A DNA stretch of 58,789 bases. Origin: Alistipes sp. GTDB taxonomy: Bacteria > Bacteroidota > Bacteroidia > Bacteroidales > Rikenellaceae. The stretch lies in contig JAFQHI010000016.1 of the NCBI GenBank assembly GCA_017398045.1, positions 1 to 58,789 on the forward strand, read 5' to 3'. Shown in pieces: positions 24,308-38,333 of the stretch. Below the pieces are notes generated by a model. It was not told the origin of the DNA, did not search any database, and worked only from the letters and a program-made list of their open reading frames with translations. A program made the position numbers and the translations under genes. The number at the start of each line of letters is the position of its first letter. Position 1 is the stretch's first letter.

Positions 24308-24315
24308 TGTGGAAA

Positions 24316-24468
24316 GAGGCTTAAGGGAACTTAAAATTGCTAAAGTTGCTTAAAGATACTTAAGGGGGCTTAAGGTGACTTAAAGTGACTTAAAGTGACT
24401 TAAAGGATTACGTTAAGAGAACCTTGCCCTTAAGCACCCTTAAGCCCCTTTAAGGCACCTTATACCAC
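24316..24468. repeat. 10-bp phased TTAA array with an inverted second arm
   Basis: From about 24320 to 24405, blocks of the form (G/A)CTTAA(A/G)gn recur every 10 bp for nine units, including ACTTAAAGTG twice exactly. After a short spacer (about 24406-24422) the same motif continues in inverted orientation (CCCTTAAGCA, CCCTTAAGCC, CCTTTAAGG) to about 24468. The exact 10-bp phase is close to one helical turn. It is not protein coding, and the two arms could pair as a long imperfect hairpin. Confidence 0.8.
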
Positions 24469-24482
24469 CTCCAGCCGCATTC

Positions 24483-24506
24483 CTGGCGGTGCGTAGGGGA
24501 CTCGAA
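24483..24506 (-). repeat. Duplicated 3' end of tRNA-Asp (att-like direct repeat)
   Basis: These 24 bases are identical to 24777-24800, which hold the CCA, acceptor strand and T-arm side of tRNA-Asp. The copy lies 294 bp away in the same orientation, downstream of the tRNA. This is the geometry left by integration of an element into a tRNA 3' end, but no integrase is present. Confidence 0.85.
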
Positions 24507-24515
24507 GCGAAGCTC

Positions 24516-24571
24516 GCGCGGATACAAAGCGCAGCCCATATAGGGCGAGCAATAAACACCATTATCCGCGC
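24516..24571. other. Inverted-repeat structure 1 beside the tRNA fragment
   Basis: GCGCGGATA (24516-24524) pairs perfectly with TATCCGCGC (24563-24571). A smaller GCCC/GGGC hairpin lies in between. The GCGGATA sequence recurs in the neighbouring cloverleaf stem. Confidence 0.7.
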
Positions 24572-24615
24572 AACCCCATTATAGTGAGAGTGACCTACGC
24601 CCGAGGGGGTGGATG

Positions 24616-24724
24616 TTTGCATGACCTGCCAAGGGCAGTGCGGATAGATGTGGTGTTCGCTTGGGCTTGCACGAAGGCGAATAGCCACATCTATCCGCAT
24701 CGCGCTGTAAGCGCGTCATGCAAA
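24616..24724. other. Cloverleaf-like nested inverted repeats of unknown function
   Basis: An outer stem TTTGCATGA (24616-24624) / TCATGCAAA (24716-24724) closes three internal arms. These are CTGCC/GGCAG (24626-24638), a perfect 14-bp GCGGATAGATGTGG/CCACATCTATCCGC (24640-24653, 24685-24698) extended by TTCGC/GCGAA, and CGCGCT/AGCGCG (24701-24715). Together they form a four-way junction. It lies between tRNA-Asp and the duplicated tRNA end. It has no tRNA-like conserved bases, so it is not a tRNA. Confidence 0.75.
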
Positions 24725-24745
24725 CCTACGTAGCCATACAACGAC

Positions 24746-24774
24746 AAAAAAAGGATGACCTTTCGATCATCCTT
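24746..24774 (-). terminator. Terminator of tRNA-Asp
   Basis: On the minus strand AAGGATGA / TCATCCTT with a T-run, starting 3 nt after the tRNA CCA end. It separates the tRNA from the cloverleaf region. Confidence 0.85.
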
Positions 24775-24777
24775 CTC

Positions 24778-24854
24778 TGGCGGTGCGTAGGGGACTCGAA
24801 CCCCTGACCCCGTGCGTGACAGGCACGTATTCTAACCAGCTGAACTAACGCACC
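24778..24854 (-). tRNA. tRNA-Asp (anticodon GTC), CCA encoded
   Basis: The minus strand folds as a standard cloverleaf. The acceptor is GGTGCGT/ACGCACC, the D-arm contains AGTTCAGCTGGTTAGAAT, and the anticodon stem CGTGC/GCACG holds the loop CTGTCAC with anticodon GTC. A 5-nt variable region precedes the T-arm AGGGG TTCGAGT CCCCT. The discriminator is G, as expected for Asp, and CCA is encoded. A terminator follows directly. Confidence 0.96.
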
Positions 24855-37887: not shown

Positions 37888-37948
37888 CGGACATTAGAAA
37901 AAGCGTGCCTTGTTTAAGGCGCGCTTTTTCCGTCCGTGGAGGTGGCGG
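37876..37948. repeat. Inverted copy of the tmRNA 3' end around the ssrA terminator
   Basis: CCGCCACCTCCACGGAC (37876-37892), which includes the tmRNA acceptor 3' strand, is perfectly mirrored at 37932-37948. The terminator stem lies between, so the whole is a 30-bp interrupted hairpin. In a read-through transcript it could sequester the 3' acceptor strand. Confidence 0.85.
37897..37930 (+). terminator. Terminator of ssrA
   Basis: GAAAAAGCGTGCC (37897-37909) pairs with GGCGCGCTTTTTC (37918-37930), including one G.U pair, around an 8-nt loop. Confidence 0.85.
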
Positions 37949-38333
37949 AGGGGCCGCCACTTATATTTACAATCCTCCCAAACCCTCCCTTTACGGCGAT
38001 AAATCGCCGTGACTGCTTGCGCGCCTCGGCAAAGGTTGCAAGCGACCTCTGCACTCGGCTGTTGCAGCAGTTGATAAGGGAGGCTTACAATAGCAAGAAG
38101 ATATTTGGCGCGCTTCCGTTGTTTGGTGGAGGTGACGGAGATTCCGCCACTTATATTTACAATCCTCCCAAACCCTCCCTTTACGGCGATAAATCGCCGT
38201 GACTGCTTGCGCGCCTCGGCAAAGGTTGCAAGCGACCTCTGCACTCGGCTGTTGCAGCAGTTGATAAGGAGGACTAACAATAGCAAGAAACAATGCGGCG
38301 CGCTTTTTCCGTCCGTGGAGGTGGCGGATTAGC
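37918..38333. repeat. 190-bp tandem repeat downstream of ssrA, two full units and a partial third
   Basis: Unit starts are at 37918, 38107 and 38297, each opening GGCGCGCTT. From 37954 the sequence repeats at 38144 with offset 190 and very few differences over about 140 bp. Each unit contains ACGGCGataaaTCGCCGT and GTGGCGG/CCGCCAC hairpins. The openings of units 1 and 3 are identical over about 32 bp, while unit 2 has diverged (GTTTG insertion). Because 190 is not a multiple of three, open frames across it are not conserved, so it is non-coding. Confidence 0.9.

Follow-up and report, generated by a model that had tools for sequence, protein, structure and literature searches.

What is the compact nest of inverted repeats that lies behind a tRNA gene at 24616..24724 of an Alistipes contig? 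A sequence-only reading of the window (the whole 58,789-nucleotide stretch of DNA analysed here) described it as an outer stem enclosing three arms. Our repeat search placed the nested inverted repeats at these positions: an outer stem (24615-24625/24715-24725, 11 bp, inverted-repeat search) encloses a long arm, with two small hairpins between. The long arm is a perfect repeat, as had been claimed, although its length is 15 bp and not 14 when read from the sequence (24639-24653/24685-24699). On the basis of folds and repeats, the outer stem, the two small hairpins and the long arm are treated together as a variable long hairpin domain at 24615..24725, annotated without a strand. The 109 bases at 24616-24724 fold to -64.6 kcal/mol as RNA (z -8.46) and to -39.9 as DNA (z -8.37), and in each case 0 of 200 shuffles reached such an energy.

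A sister 9-bp repeat, GCGCGGATA/TATCCGCGC, is located at 24516-24524/24563-24571. The GCGGATA that had been noted as common to both hairpins is probably due to chance; the sequence of the long hairpin differs in relatives. The segment is indeed tRNA-flanked: it lies between tRNA-Asp(GTC) and an exact 24-nt copy of the tRNA 3' end. Behind the tRNA gene, a 294-bp, gene-free unit surrounds the palindrome nest, which forms its core. This element, which spans 24507-24800 including its leading tail and is followed by a displaced tail at 24483-24506, is larger than the palindrome first singled out, and what is conserved in it is the sister repeat rather than the long hairpin.

Along the tRNA strand (the minus strand of the window), the order is tRNA tail, terminator, variable hairpin, tail-complementary segment, GGTT mimic, hairpin hp1, hairpin hp2 and displaced tail. 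The tRNA-Asp(GTC) gene ahead of the unit (24778..24854 by ARAGORN; Rfam tRNA, 66.3 bits at 24781-24854) contains the proximal copy of the 24-nt repeat (24777..24800), a tail that starts at TTCGA of the T-loop. It recurs exactly, as a direct repeat at a spacing of 294, in the displaced copy at the unit's far end (24483..24506). Behind the tRNA stands a terminator-like hairpin followed by a T run (24744..24774; 8-bp inverted repeat 24751-24758/24767-24774, T run read from the sequence). This terminator may be native or carried by the unit, because a nearly identical one stands behind the unit-free tRNA-Asp of the relative G027, in the same gene neighbourhood. Beyond the variable hairpin, a 13-nt segment (24588..24600) is 85% complementary to the tRNA tail, as seen among the inverted repeats and in a family-wide test. 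It precedes GGGGTT (24572..24577), a mimic of the T-stem's 5' strand followed by TT that, as helix 1 of the covariance model introduced below, covaries with the tail in the family. The sister repeat forms hp1 (24516..24571, from the inverted repeat and the model match), with a conserved inner loop and an inner hairpin. The tiny hp2 (24507..24513, read from the sequence; helix 4 of the model) stands directly before the displaced tail, and in relatives its sequence varies while its pairing is kept. The model of this end module matches the window at 24485-24615 with 100 bits.

At gathering score, the window's Rfam matches are tRNA and tmRNA only, and a loose Rfam search of 24470-24800 returned two microRNA models far under threshold. 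Other repeats were also seen in the window. Adjoining the displaced tail, ~10-bp repeats with CTTAAG/ACTTAAAG motifs and imperfect inverted repeats occupy 24313-24460. Behind the tmRNA, at 37889-38330, two ~190-bp tandem blocks carry, by eye, GTGGAGGTGGCGGA-like copies that appear to be inverted copies of the tmRNA 3' end; the end-module model has no match in these blocks. In the genome G058, four ~303-bp tandem repeats (L023:1600-2960, on G058:C16) run up to what appears by eye to be the 3' end of a tmRNA on the opposite strand. GGGGTT recurs in every repeat, together with a perfect long hairpin, another hairpin and TTCGACCCCC; the architecture is that of the unit, but the sequence differs.

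Relatives and their placement at tRNA genes

Other copies, for which a BLASTN search had been suggested, exist: by DNA BLAST, related pieces occur in 31 of 101 genomes, the window's own genome counted. R1, a covariance model built from 22 end-module sequences, has matches in 88 of the 151 genomes sampled from the genus, own genome counted, and in 67 of 200 genomes of a family sample, where they fall in 3 of 22 genera. In an order sample it has matches in 1 of 295 genomes, that one being the window's own; the filters used on such large samples miss weak R1 matches. Matches per genome number six in the window's genome (two of them weak) and 13 in G058. Among the loci listed, model-confirmed matches are from Alistipes or Rikenellaceae MAGs, many of them with titles that name ruminant gut samples; the named-contig scan covered 80 of at least 120 genome-contig loci (L197-L236 left out) and 6 viral ones. 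Two pattern scans of viral contigs gave 6 and 9 matches, of which R1 confirmed 0 of 15, and a distant BLAST of phage and plasmid records with the window's unit gave no match. A literature search that covered few subscription papers, with preprints outside its scope, found no description of the element. With middling confidence, we regard the window feature as a member of a family of mobile cassettes, gene-less and specific to this lineage, at tRNA genes in uncultured gut Alistipes. The whole analysis rests on contigs, nearly all from MAGs and several of them stopping inside arrays, and its thresholds and tail-repeat definition favour intact units in the counts.

A same-strand tRNA lies upstream of 82 of 97 R1 matches (102 before same-place duplicates were removed, from 90 loci scanned), in most cases one unit length away or a whole number of unit lengths. 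Among the remaining 15, the contig extends no more than 402 nt upstream in 12, and three are real exceptions, one at L098 and two at L111. The L098 exception appears to be explained by an island inserted between tRNA-Leu-CAA and the unit. At L111 (G131:C5:1200-7800), two end modules ~430 bp apart carry degenerate, Met-like tails, and a tRNA was not found in the stretches read.

Of 94 unit rows, 88 were kept (repeat 200-345 nt after the tRNA), and removal of two L202 rows, L012 and L033 as not single units left a set of 84. In these, the repeat-to-repeat length is 238-346 bp (median 288.5), 21 tRNA types are represented, and GCAAGC is kept near the tip of the long hairpin in 64. The longest stop-free run has a mean of 65.3 codons, against 62.3 in shuffled sequences, with no extended ORF. 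The left edge of the repeat is sharp: identity is 0.96 where TTCGA begins, falls to 0.57 at the preceding base (G, C or A vs G) and is at most 0.40 further left. High identity within the repeat is partly a selection effect, the units having been picked for the repeat, but the left edge is free of it. The displaced tail begins TCC (8) or GTC (3) instead of TTC in 11 of the 84 units, at different tRNA types. In a test for imported tails, a non-pair in the acceptor stem was present in 19 of the 112 tRNAs with units and in 4 of the 66 others. Most of these are Met or His cases that are found also without units; Thr-CGT has an A.C acceptor mismatch in four unit-bearing loci.

Conserved pairing and the probable folded strand

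Covariation, another proposed check, bears out conserved pairing. Across 96 distinct sequences, in an alignment that leans towards structure because it was fitted to the model, 97.1% of cells are paired, against 80.4% in shuffles, and sliding the pairing partners leaves 32-48% of cells paired. Double-change cells number 347, against 117.9 in shuffles, and none of 500 shuffles reached that number; only about 13 cells have a change on a single side, and standard pair types show no excess (29 vs 31.4 in shuffles). Double changes occurred in 10 of 23 pairs in an earlier MAFFT alignment (A1), and compensating changes are seen by eye among closely related units. Chance palindromes, which the sequence-only reading had allowed for, do not account for the locus, because other copies occur and pairing is conserved among them. 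On its own, as single-stranded DNA, the end module of the window gives a modest z of -1.72, with 12 of 200 shuffles as good, and the case for a folded end module rests on the family, not on the window copy.

The end module is also related to the tail of the tRNA that it accompanies. In 72 of the 88 units, those with the GGTT and the hp1 motif located, complementarity to the own tail (acceptor strand) is 6.06, against 4.23 for other tRNAs and 4.54 in the best of 200 permutations, and it exceeds the unit's own background in 58 of the 72. The T-stem mimic matches at 3.63 of 5 positions, against 2.85 and, in the best of 500 permutations, 3.06. The module and the tail together can thus form a split T-arm, with a modelled loop where hp1 and hp2 can sit.

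Would such pairing be expected of an RNA? Strong covariation is what a non-mobile structured RNA or cis-regulatory element at tRNA genes would show, if mostly vertical and homogenised by gene conversion, an explanation that we consider unlikely overall. RNA helices usually show many wobbles, and the near absence of single-side changes beside so many double changes speaks against such an RNA. Promoters were sought with the full Bacteroidota consensus of TTTG, a spacer and TAnnTTTG. With this consensus, a full promoter lies upstream of 83 of 111 unit-bearing tRNA genes. Within units it is found in 2 of 88 in the sense direction (shuffles 0.4, most 2) and in 0 of 88 antisense. A relaxed version of the full promoter is present in the sense direction in 7 of 88 units (shuffle mean 2.7, most 7) and antisense in 2 of 88 (0.6, most 2). 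In favour of an RNA, 11 of 88 units carry the -7 element by itself antisense, more than shuffles give (mean 2.9, most 6). Both looser forms exceed shuffles somewhat, and a weak antisense promoter is therefore possible in some units. However, the full form is near absent, and the terminator separates tRNA and unit.

The strand on which the variable hairpin folds can be approached through its mismatches. On the tRNA strand of 61 units, A.C occurs 37 times and G.T six times, where composition predicts 1.18 to 1. This excess of A.C implies that wobble is tolerated on the opposite strand, which is therefore probably the folded one. Folding of the variable domain also favours that strand, by 2.5 kcal/mol where shuffles give 0.1; a cruder comparison leaned similarly, as did its control. 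In the end module, strand bias is no larger than composition or shuffles give. We infer that the units fold as single-stranded DNA rather than act as an RNA gene, although an RNA read from that strand could show one-strand wobble too. The proposal that the nest is the substrate of a minimal mobile element, or else a structured RNA, thus pointed in the right direction. Of its two halves, the mobile cassette is a better fit than the RNA gene, given that full promoters are rare in the units and that these stand behind the tRNA terminator.

Apparent turnover of units and a proposed exchange of tRNA tails

For 68 of 87 units, the nearest-neighbour unit is at the same tRNA amino acid. G058, G130 and G112 have a Leu-CAG unit in common, in syntenic position; a comparison of G058 with G130 gives 98.2% identity over its first 230 bases and 93.0% upstream. 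Both observations agree with a mostly vertical structured RNA. In these genomes (L095, L107 and L114), tRNA-Leu-CAG and its units adjoin lspA- and xerC-like genes, named by reading, an adjacency that is probably just synteny. Such an RNA would, however, leave the displaced tail copy and the tandem arrays unexplained, and different units occur at orthologous sites.

Among 325 same-tRNA pairs (two same-locus rows dropped from 327), 28 have upstream flanks at least 80% alike; the unit is at most 60% alike in 18 of these and at least 80% alike in seven. Thirteen of the 18 are tRNA-Asp, and divergence may explain part of these cases because the Asp flank is conserved across many genomes. The clearest replacements are at Lys-TTT of G017 and G050 (flank 93%, unit 56%) and at Asp of G058 and G112 (91% and 49%); in the other four of the six pairs with flanks at least 90% alike, the unit is kept. 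In 9 of 22 pairs with units at least 80% alike, the upstream flanks are at most 50% alike, and flank and unit identity over all pairs are not positively correlated (Spearman -0.18). Almost identical units are found at two tRNA loci of G055 (Ser-CGA and Ser-TGA) and at one of G056 (Ser-GGA), and their downstream flanks differ; gene conversion between serine tRNA loci could also produce this pattern. The loyalty of most units to one amino acid and the four of six flank pairs with kept units indicate that movement is slow or partly gene conversion.

Nine tandem pairs occur in the stretches examined. Five are 93-100% identical and one is 81% identical, and in the pairs at L019, L023 and L229 the last 100 bases are 75-100% alike while the first 90 are only 38-42% alike. 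These three resemble cassettes in having one site type and different contents, although gene conversion could homogenise their ends.

How might a unit enter a tRNA gene? We propose that the end module and tail would fold as single-stranded DNA into the split T-arm, which would serve as the recombination site. A tyrosine recombinase, perhaps XerC/XerD or an enzyme supplied in trans, would join the folded unit end to the tRNA T-loop, cutting at G53|T54 or close to it. A new tRNA 3' end would come with the arriving unit, and the old tail would be pushed downstream; if only units with a fitting tail survive, tRNA-specific lineages would arise. Joining at the T-loop would explain these lineages and a possible decay of displaced tails. 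At L129 (Ser-TGA), the proximal tail looks native and the displaced tail donor-like, a polarity that runs opposite to the simplest T-loop cut. We offer only tentatively the full scheme of gene-less, integron-like cassettes that sit across the genome's tRNAs, are inserted at the T-loop by XerC/XerD or an enzyme in trans, and exchange tRNA 3' ends and terminators.

Candidate enzymes and known mobile systems

Ten genomes were searched for PF00589 proteins, and only two each were found in G039, G022, G101 and the unit-free G163. In G039 (98% complete, 11 R1 matches), G022 and G101 these are, by best score, one XerD-like and one XerC-like protein. They score under the equivalog cut-offs of those models and are regarded as candidate recombinases, no more. 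A search for dif gave no clear site, and no Xer binding site was identified. The integron integrase model TIGR02249 scores eight proteins at 112-145, under its cut-off of 265, and a trans source outside the MAGs is possible.

Tyrosine integrases of another kind do occur beside the units. At L265:9306-16500 and L283:194-2068, islands with an integrase of the P0001 family (PF13102 + PF00589) lie between tRNA and unit; the tRNAs are Leu-CAA (by ARAGORN) and Met (by its tail), respectively, and the islands end in shorter tRNA-tail copies. They are 6-7 kb or longer, at two loci. A larger autonomous version of the unit (L098/L265, L283) was considered and rejected, and these loci are read as islands inserted between tRNA and unit.

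Are the units then remnants or non-autonomous derivatives of tRNA-targeting islands, with double-stranded att sites, a lost tyrosine integrase and folding that is incidental or otherwise used? A tRNA with a displaced tail is the known island signature (PMC4383910), and the two loci indicate that such enzymes use the same tRNAs. But those islands lack the module beside their own att end, and homologues of the P0001 integrase are present in 17 of 121 genomes, with a distribution that does not track the units. A double-stranded site, moreover, needs neither pairing kept through double changes nor a mimic of the tail, and we regard an island origin as rather doubtful. Islands and units are alike in the restored tRNA 3' end, the displaced tail fragment in the same orientation and the tandem arrays. 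Unlike the islands, units measure 238-346 bp rather than kilobases, have no integrase or genes, possess a folded end module and occur at 21 tRNA types in one family. The filters of the island finder Islander require an integrase gene inside and a length of 2-200 kb, and would reject the units because they are shorter than 2 kb and without an integrase (PMC4383910).

Movement through RNA, either as SINE-like retrotransposition or as a bridge-RNA element, would suit the tRNA-derived tail, the structured body and the guide-like complementarity to the target. The IS110 transposase domain PF02371, in which the units differ from IS110 bridge-RNA elements, is found in 0 of 17 genomes. Reverse transcriptase PF00078 is found in 5 of the 17 but not in G058, G112 or G123, which have 12-13 R1 matches each. 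With the full promoter near absent from the units as well, movement of this kind seems very improbable.

In architecture, the units resemble integron cassettes. Units form arrays, their end site is conserved by fold and not by sequence, the boundary lies beside G|TT, and a common end with different contents occurs in three of nine tandem pairs. Unlike integron cassettes, units are without a gene, no attI platform was seen and no integron integrase was found in the genomes tested, and units target the T-loop of many tRNA genes, each bringing a tRNA 3' end. The attC fold has R and L boxes, an unpaired central spacer, extrahelical bases and a variable end (PMC2727003). By comparison, the units show a covarying palindromic fold and an unpaired conserved loop, and boxes and extrahelical bases were not identified. 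In integrons only the bottom strand is recombined, whereas for the units the hint of a strand is indirect and comes from the variable hairpin.

Other small elements were compared as well. Like MITEs and REP-type palindromic repeats, units are short, non-coding and palindromic, and presumably moved in trans. However, no terminal inverted repeats were seen in the units read, which start with a tail and end with hp2. Their direct repeat is about 20-24 nt of tRNA and not a short target duplication, and, unlike MITE or REP copies, 82 of 97 stand behind a tRNA, 12 of the remainder being at contig ends. Xer-dependent elements of the CTX-phage type use folded single-stranded sites. The units would share such a site with them, and host XerC/XerD would fit, but the units' target is not dif.

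So, what is the unit behind the tRNA-Asp gene? The sequence comparisons make it about an even call that it is a minimal mobile cassette with a folded recombination site, integron-like in anatomy and not itself an integron. Should the RNA reading be true instead, the family would be a structured RNA class at tRNA genes that is absent from Rfam 15. If the units are mobile cassettes, they would be among the smallest site-specific mobile units known to us, and would stand behind about 20 tRNA types. Folded-strand recombination would then be tied neither to integron platforms nor to dif. Host Xer enzymes may suffice for it, and the tRNA 3' ends and terminators of these genomes would be swappable as modules.
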